This document shows, piece after piece, positions 25,622-31,065 of a stretch of 64,000 nucleotides of DNA; the first letter of the stretch is position 1; each line of letters begins with the position of its first letter. A model generated the notes under the pieces. That model did not search any database. It was not told where the DNA came from and saw only the letters and a list, made by a program, of their open reading frames with translations. The translations under genes and the position numbers were made by a program. Origin of the DNA: Sediminibacillus massiliensis (GTDB lineage: Bacteria > Bacillota > Bacilli > Bacillales > Amphibacillaceae); assembly GCF_900156915.1 (NCBI RefSeq), contig NZ_LT732535.1, positions 1,327,823 through 1,391,822 on the forward strand, read 5' to 3'.

Positions 25622-26518
25622 TCAAAGTTCCCATTCACAAACCATTGTTAATTGTTTATCAATTAACTCAGCATAAATACTTCCGTTCATTTTTTCCACC
25701 AAGCTTTTGGCAATCGGCAAGCCCAGTCCGGTACCTTTACCCATCCTCGTCTGGTCGGCCTTGAAAAACCGGTCAAACATTTGATTCACATCTTGTTCTG
25801 TCAGCACATCGACCGAATTGGCGACCTTTAGCCGTACGGTATTTTTACGTTTCTGGAGCGAAATGGTAACTTCGCCGCTGGAATATCTAATTGCATTAAC
25901 GACAAGGTTTTCTATTACTCTTTTGGCAGCAGAAGGATCAAGCAGCAAAATAACATCCTCGTCCGGAATATGGATCGCCGGCTCTATGTTTCTCTTATTG
26001 AATTCCTCATAAAAACCAAACAGTGCTTCTAAAACTAAGTCATTGAACCTGATATTCTCCATTTTCACAGGATAATCCGCTTGCTCTATGATCGATAGTT
26101 CGAAAAAATCTTCCAGCAGAACCTTTAATCTTCCCGCACTTTTTTTAATCGTGTCTATATATTCTTTTTTCATGTCAGGAGTTATTTCATCCGATTCCAA
26201 AAATTGAATGTAACCCACTATCGAGGTCATAGGTGTACGAATGTCATGGGAAATATGGGAGACTGCCTGTTTTAACTCGTTTTCAGACGAACGTTTCTCT
26301 GCCTTTGCCTTGTTCGTCAAATCGATTTGATTATTAATTTCCTTCGCCAGCTCCTCAAAGTCACGGTCATGATAATCAATGTCTATTTTCTTGCCTGTTT
26401 TGTGCCGGTTTAATTGATGGAGCTGCCTTGTTGCACTTTTCACTTCTTTTTTCAGTAAATACAAACGAGTGATGACATATGCAAAAGCAATGATGACAAT
26501 GATGGTTATATAGAGCAT
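25622..26518 (-). CDS. Sensor histidine kinase of ABC-linked two-component system
   Basis: About 298 aa. One N-terminal membrane helix (MLYITIIVIIAFAYVI) and no extracellular sensing domain, then a HisKA dimerisation domain with the phospho-His in ISHDIRTPMTS and a HATPase domain (N box ENLVVNAIRYSS, G box GKGTGLGLPIA). Such kinases, with almost no outside domain, usually sense through the partner ABC transporter or within the membrane. The start could be GTG 26527 or ATG 26518; neither has an ideal site. It is the last of four genes: response regulator, ATPase, permease, kinase. Functions of this gene order include lantibiotic or peptide resistance, which is inference here. Confidence 0.9.
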   Translation of the reverse strand: MLYITIIVIIAFAYVITRLYLLKKEVKSATRQLHQLNRHKTGKKIDIDYHDRDFEELAKEINNQIDLTNKAKAEKRSSENELKQAVSHISHDIRTPMTSIVGYIQFLESDEITPDMKKEYIDTIKKSAGRLKVLLEDFFELSIIEQADYPVKMENIRFNDLVLEALFGFYEEFNKRNIEPAIHIPDEDVILLLDPSAAKRVIENLVVNAIRYSSGEVTISLQKRKNTVRLKVANSVDVLTEQDVNQMFDRFFKADQTRMGKGTGLGLPIAKSLVEKMNGSIYAELIDKQLTMVCEWEL

Positions 26519-26539
26519 ATGCCTCACCCACTTCCTTTT

Positions 26540-27289
26540 TTACTTAATTTCTTTCCGTTGGAAGATAAAGCTTCCCAAAGCTCCAAACGCCAAGAATGTA
26601 ACAATCGGCACCACTACAAGGGTCGCCACTTCCATGCTTTCCAACGTGTCAACAATGAGGATATCGTATATTAACTTAAAAACAGAATGATTGAGAATAG
26701 GTTCAAAAAAAGGCACTTTAACTGCTAAAAGTTGCAGTGGCCAGTCAACAAATATAAAAAACATAAGCAGGAATCCAATCGTTTTCCCGCTATCGGTGAA
26801 CAAGATAGAAAACACTGCCATTATAGATGCAAAGCCTGCACCATACAATATAATCAGTCCGACTGTCTGGAAGTAAAATGTCCATTCAGGCATGTCCTGG
26901 AAGCCAAAGTAAATCGCACTGGCTCCCGTCATAAAAATCGGCAGAATTAAAGAGATAATAATCGTTCCCGCTGAGAATACCATCAGCTTGGCAAAATAGA
27001 TCCGCACCCTGCTGTTACCGGAGGAAACGATACTCTTCATCGTTCCCATGGAGTATTCGCCCGAAATAAAAAATCCCGCCAAAATACTTGGAATGAGCTT
27101 GACGATATTACCATGGGTGCCAAGGACACTTTCCAAATAATAATCCTTTACCGCAGGCAGTCCTGGTGCGCCATTATCAAATTCGATTAAAGGAAACAAC
27201 ACGGCAGCAGCGAACAACATCCAGGTCAAGAAACGAAACGACCGATCCTTCTTCAATTTATACCATTCTGTTTTCAGTAGATTACCCAT
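26540..27289 (-). CDS. ABC-2 type permease
   Basis: 249 aa, six membrane helices, beginning MGNLLKTEWYKLKKDRSFRF, the usual opening of ABC2 permeases of the lantibiotic-immunity/NatB-like type. ATG at 27289 is preceded by GGAGGGGTACAGC and overlaps the ATPase gene by eight bases; the longer frame to 27406 only shadows the ATPase. It forms the membrane part of an exporter with the ATPase upstream. Likely exported or expelled substrate: a cell-envelope-active peptide (inference from neighbouring two-component system). Confidence 0.88.
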   Translation of the reverse strand: MGNLLKTEWYKLKKDRSFRFLTWMLFAAAVLFPLIEFDNGAPGLPAVKDYYLESVLGTHGNIVKLIPSILAGFFISGEYSMGTMKSIVSSGNSRVRIYFAKLMVFSAGTIIISLILPIFMTGASAIYFGFQDMPEWTFYFQTVGLIILYGAGFASIMAVFSILFTDSGKTIGFLLMFFIFVDWPLQLLAVKVPFFEPILNHSVFKLIYDILIVDTLESMEVATLVVVPIVTFLAFGALGSFIFQRKEIK

Positions 27290-28205
27290 GCTGTACCCCT
27301 CCGATCCGGTTGCTGAAGTATGTTTCCAAATCTTCCCCCATCGGCATGAATTCTTCGATGACCAATCCCTCTTGGGACAAAATTCGGGATACTTTACCTG
27401 GTACATTTACATAGGCAAACAACTTGATGGTCCCACCTGGCATTACTTCAAATTCTTGCGTTGACAAGCGGTTTTCTATAATGGTTGCTGCTTTATTTGG
27501 GTTATCCACTTTGATATGCAAGTATTGCTGGCATTTCTCCTGCAGTTCTTTCGCCGATAGCTGCTCTAATAATTCACCATTATGGATAATTCCATAATCG
27601 GTAGCCAACAAGTGTAATTCACTGAGAATATGGCTCGAGATCAATATGGTAATGCCATACTCCCGGTTAAGCTTTTTAAGTAATTCCCGTATTTCCACTA
27701 CTCCCATTGGATCCAGTCCGTTGACAGGCTCATCAAGCACCAGGAATTCCGGATCTCCCAATAAAGCAATTGCAAGCCCCAGACGCTGCTTCATACCCAA
27801 AGAAAAATTTTTCGCTTTCTTTTTTCCGGTCTCGTGCAGTCCGACAATCTTAAGTGTTTTTTCAATACAATCTTTCCCGGGAATACCTTTCAACAGCCGA
27901 TGCGCTTCCAAATTTTCTGCGGCCGTCATTTGTGGATATAAAGCAGGACCTTCGATTATTGTTCCAATTCGTTTCCTGGCTTCGATCAACTCTCGTTCAC
28001 TGTTTTCTCCGAATAATTCAAATGTTCCAGTAGTTGGATATGCAAGACCAGTTATGAGACGGATCAGCGTTGATTTTCCGGCGCCGTTTTGCCCGATGAA
28101 TCCATAAATAGCCCCTTTTTTTATCCTTACACTAACATTGTCCAATGCCAGTTTATTCTGGTATTTTTTGGACAATTGATTGGTTGTTAAAACATACTCA
28201 CTCAT
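27282..28205 (-). CDS. ABC transporter ATPase
   Basis: 307 aa. Walker A GQNGAGKST, signature FSLGMKQRLGLAIAL, Walker B FLVLDEPVNGLDP, then a C-terminal domain of about 80 residues as in BcrA/LanF-type exporters. ATG at 28205 lies nine bases after AAGGAGG. It pairs with the ABC2 permease. The promoter region just upstream (28206-28325) has a run of phased TTAAG repeats, good candidates for response-regulator boxes. Confidence 0.92.
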   Translation of the reverse strand: MSEYVLTTNQLSKKYQNKLALDNVSVRIKKGAIYGFIGQNGAGKSTLIRLITGLAYPTTGTFELFGENSERELIEARKRIGTIIEGPALYPQMTAAENLEAHRLLKGIPGKDCIEKTLKIVGLHETGKKKAKNFSLGMKQRLGLAIALLGDPEFLVLDEPVNGLDPMGVVEIRELLKKLNREYGITILISSHILSELHLLATDYGIIHNGELLEQLSAKELQEKCQQYLHIKVDNPNKAATIIENRLSTQEFEVMPGGTIKLFAYVNVPGKVSRILSQEGLVIEEFMPMGEDLETYFSNRIGGVQHG

Positions 28206-28272
28206 CAAGGTTTTCCTCCTTAAATCATTATCTAACTTGCTCAAAAGATTGCTTTTTGAACACTCTTTTACT

Positions 28273-28325
28273 ATAAGAAGGAAAACATAAGAAAGTCTTA
28301 AGTAAATCCTTAAGAAAACCTTAAG
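28273..28325. repeat. Phased (T/A)TAAG repeats, probable response-regulator boxes
   Basis: ATAAG at 28273 and 28287, TTAAG at 28298, 28310 and 28321: the last four are spaced 11, 12 and 11 bp, one helical turn apart. OmpR-type regulators bind direct repeats with about this period (SaeR uses GTTAAG-N6-GTTAAG). The run lies between the response-regulator stop and the ATPase start, so it should control the transporter and kinase genes. Confidence 0.6.
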
Positions 28326-29013
28326 TTTTTAGTTTGTATCCCATCCCCCAAATGGTTTCGATATACTCTTCATCCGGATTTGCCTTTGCGAGCTTGCTCC
28401 TGATGTGGCTCAAATGGACATTAATCGTATTATCATCCCCGTAGAACTGCTCTTTCCAGACACGTTCGAACAAATTGGCTTTGGTAAAGACTTTATGAGG
28501 GGAAGACATCATCAAGAATAGTATTTCATATTCCCGGGCCGTTAATTTAAGTTCAATTCCATTCACAGTTATTACTTTCGCATCAGGGTCCAGAACCATA
28601 TCTTTATGGGTGATCTGGTTGGTGAGCGACACACCCGTTACATCTTGGTATCTCCGGAGGCATGAATCAATTCTGGCAGAAACCTCTTCAATATCAAAAG
28701 GTTTGGTAATGTAGTCATCCGCGCCCGCCCTTAATGCATTGATTTTTGCTTGTGTTTCAAGCTTTGCAGATATAATGATGATAGGGATATTGCTCTCTTT
28801 TGTTACCTTTTTCAGTATATCTTCCCCTGACAGACCAGGCAGCATAAGATCAATCAGGACCATGTCCCATTTCTGGCTGTCCAGATAGATCATTGCTTCC
28901 GTCCCTGAATATGCTGGTTTGGGAAAATAACCACTTTTAAGGACAATATCACACAGCAAGCGATTAATGTCTTCATCATCTTCAATTATCAATATATTTA
29001 CCGGGTCCTTCAT
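28321..29013 (-). CDS. OmpR-family response regulator
   Basis: 230 aa. Receiver domain with acidic pair IIEDDED, phospho-Asp in LIDLMLPG and switch Lys in ITKPFD; C-terminal winged helix (ELKLTAREYEILFLMMSSP; TINVHLSHIRSKL; IWGMGYKL). It should be phosphorylated by the kinase encoded three genes later and act on the phased repeats immediately downstream. Starts after GAGGATGATTGG. Confidence 0.94.
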   Translation of the reverse strand: MKDPVNILIIEDDEDINRLLCDIVLKSGYFPKPAYSGTEAMIYLDSQKWDMVLIDLMLPGLSGEDILKKVTKESNIPIIIISAKLETQAKINALRAGADDYITKPFDIEEVSARIDSCLRRYQDVTGVSLTNQITHKDMVLDPDAKVITVNGIELKLTAREYEILFLMMSSPHKVFTKANLFERVWKEQFYGDDNTINVHLSHIRSKLAKANPDEEYIETIWGMGYKLKT

Positions 29014-29155
29014 CCAATCATCCTCGACAACTTAATCATTTATCTAAATCATTCCTGTAATTTTACTCGATGTCAAATCTTACACAAACGAACACTAGTT
29101 TACCCGATGTTTAGGTAAGTTCTATTGTCCAAGTATTCCAGCATGTTATAACGAC

Positions 29156-29223: not shown

Positions 29224-29829
29224 TCAGAACGCTTTTCGTTCGTAAATAACCGATGTAATCCCCCATGAAGCAATATAGAATACAAGAACAGCAAGCGACA
29301 ATCCAGTATATAAGACGGGAATGGATAAATTCATGATAAAATTCGTAATCACTGTCAGGTGGTCAGCCAGATACAATACAATTCTTGGTCCTATACCTGC
29401 CAAAAGCAGAAAGCTGATAAGGACTGTTGAAAAAATATGCCCTGGTTTTAATAAATAAAACAATGGAAAGGTTAATGCAGCAAATAAAAAAAACAAACCA
29501 CTGGCAACCGCTATATCATGCAGCGTGAACGATTTATTGAAAATAAACAACGCCAGACTCGCCACCCCGATTTCTATTACCAAGTACACAACTGCACCAA
29601 GATAACGTGAGGCGATAATTTCCTTACGCGTGTAGGGCAAAGAATTCAACAATATATTCGTCTCTGCTTTTTCATCGTATGCAAAAGAATTAAATGGAAT
29701 AAAAATACTGGCAACCAAAAAAGTCATAGCTGGATGCGAATCCATGATTATAAAGAATGCGATAAAAGGAATGAAAGTCAATAACAGTCTTTTCTGCAGG
29801 ATGACATCACGTCTGATTAAATTAAACAT
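29224..29829 (-). CDS. ABC-2 type permease (ABC2_membrane_5-like)
   Basis: 201 aa with six membrane helices (FNLIRRDVILQKRLLL at the start; SILLNSLPYTRKEIIASRY-like cytoplasmic loop). Matches the small permeases found with YtrA-type GntR and YtrB-like ATPase genes. The gene overlaps the ATPase by eight bases and starts after GGGAGG. Last gene of the operon. These transporters respond to cell-wall-active agents in B. subtilis (ytr) but the substrate here is unknown. Confidence 0.86.
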   Translation of the reverse strand: MFNLIRRDVILQKRLLLTFIPFIAFFIIMDSHPAMTFLVASIFIPFNSFAYDEKAETNILLNSLPYTRKEIIASRYLGAVVYLVIEIGVASLALFIFNKSFTLHDIAVASGLFFLFAALTFPLFYLLKPGHIFSTVLISFLLLAGIGPRIVLYLADHLTVITNFIMNLSIPVLYTGLSLAVLVFYIASWGITSVIYERKAF

Positions 29830-30688
29830 GGTGCACGCCTCCCTTCAGGTGATACATAATATCTTCCAAAGAGGCTGGCTCAATCACTACACTGTTTCCG
29901 AAAGTGTTTCTCACTGCTTCCATATTGTCGGTTAATGCCTCAAATCCTGTGGGTGCACGATGAATATGGACGAAGGCCTTTTCCGTGTCTCTATCCAGAA
30001 GCTCCCTACCGCCTTTTACGAGCGCATAGTTTTCGGCTATGTCGTGGATGGATTGGTTAAACACCAATTCGCCTTTTTGTATAAAAGCTATGTAATCGGC
30101 GACCCTGTCTAAATCCGTTGTAATATGCGTGGAAAAGAAAATGGTCCGATTGCCATCCACCATTATTTCCTGTAAAAGGGCCAACAATTCCCGCCTGAAA
30201 ATGGGATCCAAACCGGCTGTCGGTTCATCCATGATGATCAGTTCTGCATGATGGGATAATGCAATCGCCAGTGAGGCTTTCATCTGCATCCCTTTTGAAA
30301 AAGTTTTTATTGCTTTATTCATCGGCAATTCGAACTGTTCGATGTACCGATGAAAGATTGCATCATCCCAACTTTTGTATGCAGGGGAAACTATCCGCTT
30401 TATATCTTTCAAATTAAGCCCTTCAAAAAATACGTTGCCATCATATACAAATCCAATCCGTTCCTTGATCGCCTTCTCATGCGTCCTGTAATCCATACCA
30501 AAAAGCTTCACTTCACCTGCATCTGGCTTTAAAAGGTTCATCATCATTTTAATGGTTGTCGACTTTCCAGCTCCGTTTGCCCCGATGAATCCCGTAACAA
30601 AACCTTGTTTCACTTGTAAATCAATGTTTTTGACGGAGAAATCTTTAAATCTCTTCGATACGTTTATTAATTCAACCACATTTTCCAT
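29822..30688 (-). CDS. ABC transporter ATPase (YtrB/YhcG-like)
   Basis: 288 aa. Walker A GANGAGKST, signature FSKGMQMKASLAIAL, Walker B LIIMDEPTAGLDP, H-loop FFSTHITTD. C-terminal segment has the family ending (SLEDIMYHLKGGVHHV). ATG at 30688 follows GAGGAG by eight bases and just overlaps the GntR gene end; a GTG at 30697 would lie too close to the site. Works with the permease that follows. Confidence 0.92.
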   Translation of the reverse strand: MENVVELINVSKRFKDFSVKNIDLQVKQGFVTGFIGANGAGKSTTIKMMMNLLKPDAGEVKLFGMDYRTHEKAIKERIGFVYDGNVFFEGLNLKDIKRIVSPAYKSWDDAIFHRYIEQFELPMNKAIKTFSKGMQMKASLAIALSHHAELIIMDEPTAGLDPIFRRELLALLQEIMVDGNRTIFFSTHITTDLDRVADYIAFIQKGELVFNQSIHDIAENYALVKGGRELLDRDTEKAFVHIHRAPTGFEALTDNMEAVRNTFGNSVVIEPASLEDIMYHLKGGVHHV

Positions 30689-30693
30689 TACCT

Positions 30694-31065
30694 TCACTCC
30701 TCGTACAAGATTTTCAACAGTTCCTGCAACTCATCAAACGACAGACCGATCTCTTTGCTGTTTGTTATCACCGCACTCAGCTGCTCCTCAATCACCTTAA
30801 GCTTCTTCTCCTTTATGACCTCTAAATTTTGCTCTGCCACAAAAGATCCCTTTCCGACGATCGAATAGATAAAGCCCGCCTTCTCCAATTCCTCATAAGC
30901 ACGTTTCGTCGTTATCACACTTATTTGTAAATCCTTCGCCAGCTTCCGTATCGAAGGCAACGCTGTCCCTTCTTGTAATTCACCAGCTAAAATGGACGAT
31001 TTAATTTGATTGGTAATTTGTTCATAAATCGGCTCCTTTGAAGTGTTGGAAATAATTATTTGCAT
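30694..31065 (-). CDS. GntR-family regulator, YtrA subfamily
   Basis: 123 aa. Winged helix (EPIYEQITNQIKSSILAGEL; LPSIRKLAKDLQISVITTKRAYEELEKAG) and a short C-terminal dimer helix (IEEQLSAVITNSKEIGLSFDELQELL). First gene of the GntR, ATPase, permease operon; likely a repressor released by cell-envelope stress or a ligand. A perfect inverted repeat lies 32-66 bp upstream. Starts after AGAGGGGATTGC. Confidence 0.92.
   Translation of the reverse strand: MQIIISNTSKEPIYEQITNQIKSSILAGELQEGTALPSIRKLAKDLQISVITTKRAYEELEKAGFIYSIVGKGSFVAEQNLEVIKEKKLKVIEEQLSAVITNSKEIGLSFDELQELLKILYEE

Follow-up and report, generated by a model that had tools for sequence, protein, structure and literature searches.

A phased array of CTTAAG repeats between a response-regulator gene and an ABC exporter gene in Sediminibacillus massiliensis as a putative VanR/CiaR-type operator

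Direct repeats of 11 bp built on a TTAAG core are known operators, so the type of switch discussed here is already known (PMC3091779, PMC4938410, PMC6222199). The CiaR box of streptococci reads NTTAAG-N5-TTTAAG, and a distance of 10 bp to the -10 box was used in the corresponding promoter search (PMC3091779). The RR_1586 site of Clostridioides difficile consists of DRTTAAGNWWW occurring twice (PMC6222199), and the VanR box reads (T/C)CGTANGAAA(T/A)T; the vanG promoter carries it as three direct repeats of 12 bp (PMC4405338). A published description of the array and system treated here was not found in the literature searched, which was thin on subscription papers.

The window, by which we mean the whole stretch of 64,000 nucleotides of Sediminibacillus massiliensis DNA that was analysed (contig NZ_LT732535.1, positions 1,327,823 to 1,391,822), holds four genes on its minus strand in the order regulator, ABC ATPase, ABC-2 permease and histidine kinase:

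28321..29013, minus strand: response regulator, 230 aa, recognition helix INVHLSHIRSKL (open reading frame and Pfam)
27282..28205, minus strand: ABC ATPase, 307 aa (Pfam ABC_tran)
26540..27289, minus strand: ABC-2 permease, 249 aa (Pfam ABC2_membrane_4)
25622..26527, minus strand: histidine kinase, 301 aa (Pfam HisKA, HATPase_c)

The regulator is an OmpR/PhoB-family response regulator composed of a receiver and a winged-helix domain (Pfam Response_reg PF00072 and Trans_reg_C PF00486, both above cut-off). Its best NCBIfam matches are the VanR, MtrA and PhoB models, of which the VanR model reaches 186 bits against a cut-off of 350; the kinase likewise reaches 169.5 bits with the VanS model against a cut-off of 400. 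By simple hydropathy the kinase has a single N-terminal hydrophobic stretch (residues 7-25) and no extracellular domain, and in two of the three plasmid copies described below, which have shorter annotated starts, it shows no hydrophobic stretch above threshold. The ATPase is nearest to lantibiotic-protection proteins of the LanF type (TIGR03740, 241.6 bits, the best of 188 matched families, with the cut-off of 309.75 missed). The permease has six hydrophobic windows and matches the MutG family at E 1.7e-6, under the cut-off. A neighbouring upstream operon (29224-31065, minus strand) resembles a PSM exporter, with an ABC2_membrane_5 permease, a GntR regulator near PmtR (151.9 of 200 bits) and an ATPase near PmtA (338.4 of 350 bits).

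A preliminary description of this locus had placed five (T/A)TAAG copies, the last four 11-12 bp apart, between the response-regulator gene and the ATPase gene. Both the letters and the placement are correct: read directly on the plus strand, ATAAG stands at 28273-28277 and 28287-28291 and TTAAG at 28298-28302, 28310-28314 and 28321-28325, with steps of 14, 11, 12 and 11 bp between successive TAAG copies. On the minus strand, which is that of the operon, the same stretch reads CTTAAG GTTTT CTTAAG GATTTA CTTAAG ACTTT CTTATG TTTTCCTTCT TATAGT, so that the array has the formula CTTAAG-N5-CTTAAG-N6-CTTAAG-N5-CTTATG. As CTTAAG is a palindrome, the repeats do not fix the strand on which a protein would read them. 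The elements of the region are:

29048..29076, minus strand: promoter-like site of the regulator gene, TTGACA-17-AATGAT, without an array (10/12 matches)
28320..28325, minus strand: repeat R1, CTTAAG, overlapping the stop codon of the regulator gene
28309..28314, minus strand: repeat R2, CTTAAG, 11 bp after R1
28297..28302, minus strand: repeat R3, CTTAAG, 12 bp after R2
28286..28291, minus strand: repeat R4, CTTATG, 11 bp after R3
28274..28286, minus strand: GTTTTCCTTCTTA, complementary to the ATPase Shine-Dalgarno region in the read-through transcript, a putative anti-Shine-Dalgarno stretch
28270..28275, minus strand: -10 box TATAGT, beginning 16 bp after the start of R4
28215..28220, minus strand: Shine-Dalgarno AGGAGG of the ATPase gene (read from the sequence)

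Between the end of R4 and the -10 box lie 10 bp, and the promoter scan listed no -35 partner for TATAGT. The fifth of the originally counted copies does not survive as a repeat. This copy 1 (TATAAG, 28272-28277) overlaps and complements the -10 box, and in relatives beyond the nearest its place is occupied by CATACT, TATACT, CATAAT and similar letters with no TAAG repeat; a five-repeat array was therefore rejected. The promoter-like site of the regulator gene is weak, as the region holds 7 such sites against 3.9 expected.

The array is confirmed as a real, non-random feature of the spacer. When the window was scanned on both strands for four-site arrays scoring at least 17/24, only this place and its shifted registers came up, and against 300 dinucleotide shuffles of the spacer the array reached the floor value of p = 1/301. 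The exact pair CTTAAG-N5/6-CTTAAG has no second copy in the 4.35-Mb genome. A loose pair-plus-(-10) pattern with three mismatches allowed gave 8 matches compared with 24 for the reversed control, and because of this ratio we take the seven matches other than the site itself as chance. The search for further motif copies, proposed as a way to find the regulon, thus had a divided outcome: a second array site, as a larger regulon would require, was sought in the window's own genome and not found, while in relatives the array was found before a further gene, here called X.

The array is conserved behind the regulator gene. A regulator ortholog at E<=1e-65 is present in 36 of 159 genomes of the family, and the loci inspected were the window's own and 29 others, then the remaining six and the second copy of G061. 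By eye, the array is recognisable in 35 of the 36 genome-best loci, with those of G111 and G018 degenerate; G058 (regulator 50% identical) and the second copy of G061 have TTTAA-type rows in its place. The preliminary description had looked to natural relatives without the repeats as a possible refutation; at the level of the letters, every inspected locus with a regulator at least 53% identical retains a recognisable array, the two degenerate ones included.

A formal test was applied to loci with an ATPase match no more than 320 bp downstream, which left 59, the window among them. Where the regulator is at least 54% identical and the ATPase adjacent, which is the case in 45 loci, the array scores at least 20/24 at the floor p (1/301) without exception. 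The R2-R3 spacing in these close loci is 12 bp in 42 and 11 bp in three (L114, L167, L168), R1 overlaps the regulator stop in 40, and the -10 box at +16 matches at five or more of six positions in 44. Of the 14 loci with an adjacent ATPase and less than 54% identity, only seven reached p<=0.01, and four of these seven are Clostridia with TTCTTTA-type rows. As a control, the 250 bp in front of each of these 45 regulator genes were scored; they reach at most 17, except for a single 20 (L101, in G148). This one upstream score belongs to a site that precedes a divergent hydrolase gene.

In its exact form the triple repeat was found at 20 places in the 159 genomes, all of them immediately 3' of the regulator gene. 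At up to two mismatches the triple pattern is found in 56 of the 159 genomes and its reversed control in about 58 (hand count); since the control matches about as many genomes, two-mismatch matches alone mean nothing. It has to be considered that the array could be chance or an A+T-rich repeat without function, as the region is A+T-rich, CTTAAG is a palindrome of common letters and the two-mismatch pattern is no commoner than its control. However, the spacing is fixed and conserved across the class and the exact pair stands nowhere else in the genome, so we assign this explanation a negligible probability.

Several individual loci depart from the common layout. In G053 (L283) the array is kept although the start of the ATPase gene seems to be missing, and in G082 (L122) regulator and ATPase are separated by about 220 bp more than is usual. 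L196 in G146, at the end of a contig, consists of an array and a truncated ATPase followed by kinase fragments; this locus and that of G154 look like decayed copies. Among the matches listed in a plasmid search, the four best records carry regulators 57-58% identical. Three of these, the plasmid copies L251-L253, have the same gene order and arrays scoring 21, 20 and 23 of 24; their hosts are, in this order, Staphylococcus xylosus, Enterococcus faecalis and S. saprophyticus, and they lie near erm(48), apmA and msr(A). On the L251 plasmid a serine hydrolase gene follows the kinase gene.

The sixth base of the repeats changes together with the recognition helix of the regulator. Among 81 regulators with an adjacent ATPase, helix places 2-3 are NV in 54 and KT in 21. 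The KT loci, which form one clade and come mostly from one other family, have CTTAAC-N5-CTAAAC instead of the CTTAAG array, again with the -10 box at +16. The best-pair search used for the helix comparison left base 6 unscored, and this base is C at both best-pair sites in 20 of the 21 KT loci, the lone exception (L268) being a locus in which the array lies right at the end of the regulator frame. Of the 108 base-6 positions in the 54 NV loci, 79 hold G, 28 hold A or T and one holds C. As the KT clade is monophyletic, the change from NV to KT with that from G to C amounts to a single event, and we interpret it as consistency rather than as a statistic. Two TV loci (L187, L189) hold a CTTAAC and score poorly. 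The VanR-like L200 has the helix VAVH, yet CTTAAG repeats stand before its gene; this is a two-mismatch match and may be chance. The paired change of helix and repeat makes the DNA specificity of the OmpR family directly testable with natural sequences.

Reuse of the array at a second promoter is seen before gene X, where it nearly always has the 11-12-11-16 geometry, often with TATATT as the -10 box. The product of X, 196 aa long, matched no family at the default limit, and a comparison with solved structures at E<=1 gave nothing either; this protein is possibly a papain-like hydrolase, judging from a resemblance to Peptidase_C92 that lies under the Pfam cut-off (E 0.0069, 16.9 bits against 27). 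X-like genes occur in 128 of the 159 genomes, and the X loci examined were the best-scoring ones among the matches listed, from 34 genomes with an intact X. In these best-scoring loci the array reaches at least 21/24 in 14 of 14 genomes in which the regulator stands in the same locus, compared with 4 of 20 (G060, G151, G105 and G154) in which no full regulator is linked to X. The remainder of these 20 consists of one borderline locus (G087, score 19) and 15 loci without an array (scores up to 16). In G004 and G020 a broken X lies beside the regulator, and no array stands upstream of the pieces (score 11). The stretch surrounding the X homolog of the window's own genome (L245) contains no array at 19/24 or more.

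The exceptions among the unlinked loci differ in kind. In the G151 draft the regulator lies on contig C5 and X on contig C1, each with an array of its own, as trans control by one protein predicts. In G154 (L195) the array and X are followed by a regulator remnant of 48 residues, 58% identical. G060 (L148) and G105 (L247) have the array before X and no regulator ortholog at E<=1e-65, which suggests that another regulator may read such arrays there, and these two genomes speak against a strict one-to-one pairing of regulator and array. The array ties protein X, for which there is no curated family, to this two-component system.

Pattern matches away from the regulator were followed at 26 loci. 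Those kept stand before X in G154, G153 and G075 and before the ATPase gene in G146, together with weak single cases in G148, G019 and G107; most other matches were dropped as chance, being situated inside reading frames or without a clear gene downstream. The three weak cases are two-mismatch arrays and possibly chance: one before a beta-lactamase-family hydrolase gene divergent from the regulator (G148, L197), one before a VanY-type carboxypeptidase gene with a full -10 match at +16 (G019, L248/L201) and one before a VanR-like regulator gene (G107, L200).

These observations bear on the possibility that another OmpR-family regulator, such as a VanR-like paralog, is the main reader of the array and that the adjacent regulator acts elsewhere or by cross-talk. 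The arrays without a close regulator in G060 and G105 would agree with this, as would the two-mismatch arrays before the VanR-like and VanY-type genes of G107 (L200) and G019 (L201) and the presence of a VanR-like paralog (L002, 39% identity) in the window's own genome. By contrast, the array stands behind the adjacent regulator's own gene in all 45 close loci, and a change in the recognition helix of this regulator is accompanied by a change in the array, while the VanR-like paralog has a different helix, VAVHIRKIREKI. None of the 10 paralog loci scanned in the same genome has a comparable array, their best two-site-plus-(-10) score being 13/16 compared with 15 at the site, and we therefore consider another main reader improbable.

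Very probably, the array is a VanR/CiaR-type operator at which the phosphorylated adjacent regulator activates the exporter and the kinase in a positive feedback, as sequence and comparison with described systems suggest. The regulator would be made at a basal level from its own upstream promoter, the weak predicted site without an array. After phosphorylation by the kinase, two regulator dimers would bind head to tail, one at R1-R2 and one at R3-R4, with 11 bp within each repeat pair and 12 bp between the pairs. From the layout, cooperative binding is plausible. The dimer next to the -10 box would then occupy the place of a poor -35 and recruit RNA polymerase in a CiaR-like manner. PhoB recruits RNA polymerase in this way. 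Transcription would start at about 28263 and cover ATPase, permease and kinase; as more kinase would be made, the feedback would be positive, and the regulator, whose putative promoter has no array, would stay basal when exporter and kinase are induced. Since the kinase possesses a single membrane helix and lacks an extracellular domain, the signal probably arrives through the exporter, whose substrate may be an envelope-active peptide. Of the earlier interpretation, the tandem OmpR/PhoB-type box before the ATPase gene, its tie to the regulator and the implied feedback are thus upheld by comparison, and the fifth copy and the use of SaeR as a model (see below) are given up.

Alternatively, the bound regulator may block the promoter, with a change in phosphorylation releasing the block. 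Such repression has a precedent in RR_1586: in an E. coli reporter, two promoters with perfect matches were expressed less in its presence, and phosphorylation released its binding at most of the tested sites, the perfect ones excepted (PMC6222199). The sites in the window, however, end 10 bp before a -10 box for which the promoter scan listed no -35 partner, which is the layout of CiaR-activated promoters (PMC3091779), and repression appears unlikely to us.

A further explanation places the function of the conserved sequence in RNA, as a leader or attenuator between regulator and ATPase. Folding of the spacer is slightly favoured over that of its shuffles (z -2.33), and between R4 and the -10 box lies GUUUUCCUUCUUA, which is predicted to pair with the ATPase Shine-Dalgarno region in the read-through RNA. 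Because it lies upstream of the predicted start, this stretch would be absent from RNA started at the array, and the predicted probability that the window's Shine-Dalgarno is unpaired is 0.01 in read-through compared with 0.34 in array-started RNA. Against an RNA function, the phased direct repeats are kept, before gene X too, where the leader is a different one, the spacer scan listed no terminator-like site, and the pairing is not general across NV and KT loci: it falls in the lowest 10% of shuffles in 13 of 44 NV loci (L122 being left out for its long spacer) and in 1 of 21 KT loci. An RNA leader was rejected as the main explanation on these three grounds, and we hold it to be very improbable. 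Nine of the 13 paired NV loci fall in the same part of the tree as the window, and for the subclade of the window, as well as for L170 and L173, the pairing (28210-28286, minus strand, in the window) is predicted to silence read-through RNA. Beside activation at the array, this anti-Shine-Dalgarno layer would at best be a local refinement.

Taken together, these elements permit a wider reading, which we put forward tentatively and which may well prove wrong. The array would be the shared switch of a mobile envelope-defence regulon that is carried by chromosomes as well as by staphylococcal and enterococcal resistance plasmids. The regulon would include the exporter and the possibly papain-like X; a serine hydrolase of the beta-lactamase family and a carboxypeptidase of the VanY type may belong to it in single genomes. 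A kinase without a sensing domain would read the exporter, and in the window's subclade the anti-Shine-Dalgarno would silence read-through RNA so that only array-started transcripts are translated. Helix and base 6 would have switched together once, from NV/G to KT/C, leaving a natural pair for decoding OmpR-family specificity. As a sharply defined putative operator whose exact form is unique in the genome, the array predicts which targets this uncharacterised two-component system has throughout the class, and the predicted targets include plasmid-borne copies beside drug-resistance genes.

Among the known systems, the SaeR motif had been named as similar. The SaeR box is GTTAA-N6-GTTAA, and its period of 11 bp agrees with the array. 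SaeR was dropped as a model: the best families of the regulator are VanR, MtrA and PhoB, and in the comparison with solved structures RegX3 and MtrA come well ahead of the SaeR DNA-binding domains.

The likeness to VanR lies in the several direct repeats and in VanR and VanS being the best NCBIfam models of regulator and kinase, both far below their cut-offs. Between 28200 and 28340 the two best fits to the VanR consensus are R2 and R3 on the plus strand, each with 9 of 11 specified positions, followed by R4 with 8/11 and R1 with 7/11; the G of CGTA is never kept. The VanRG sites lie upstream of the -35 box (PMC4405338), unlike the array here. With the RR_1586 site the array shares the 11-bp direct repeat and the TTAAG core followed by A/T, while RR_1586 differs in its other predicted targets, which include sporulation and germination genes, and in the repression reported for it (PMC6222199).

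In gene content, the BceRS-BceAB and CprABC-type modules likewise wire a two-component system to a peptide-resistance ABC transporter. The Bce-type permease, however, has 10 helices and a large outside loop, compared with 249 aa and six hydrophobic windows here, and the Cpr-type kinase has a loop of about 113 aa, compared with a kinase that has one hydrophobic stretch and no loop (PMC5786555). An intramembrane-sensing kinase of the BceRS type has two helices and a short loop and thereby also differs from the single stretch found here.

A further likeness is to the CiaR box (PMC3091779) and to BAS0540 of Bacillus anthracis (PMC4938410), with which the locus shares an 11-bp direct repeat with a TTAAG core, the same distance to the -10 box and a regulator of the OmpR family. 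R3-R4 have the spacing of the CiaR box and its 10 bp to the -10 box, TATAGT, while R4 (CTTATG) has C for the first T of the box and T for its second A, a position that does not vary in the CiaR set. The two published systems have two repeats, whereas the locus described here has four in an 11-12-11 array; the recognition helix of CiaR is VVEVYVSKVRKKL, compared with that of the regulator given above; and CiaR acts at 15 promoters in S. pneumoniae, compared with one exact place in the genome studied here (PMC3091779).
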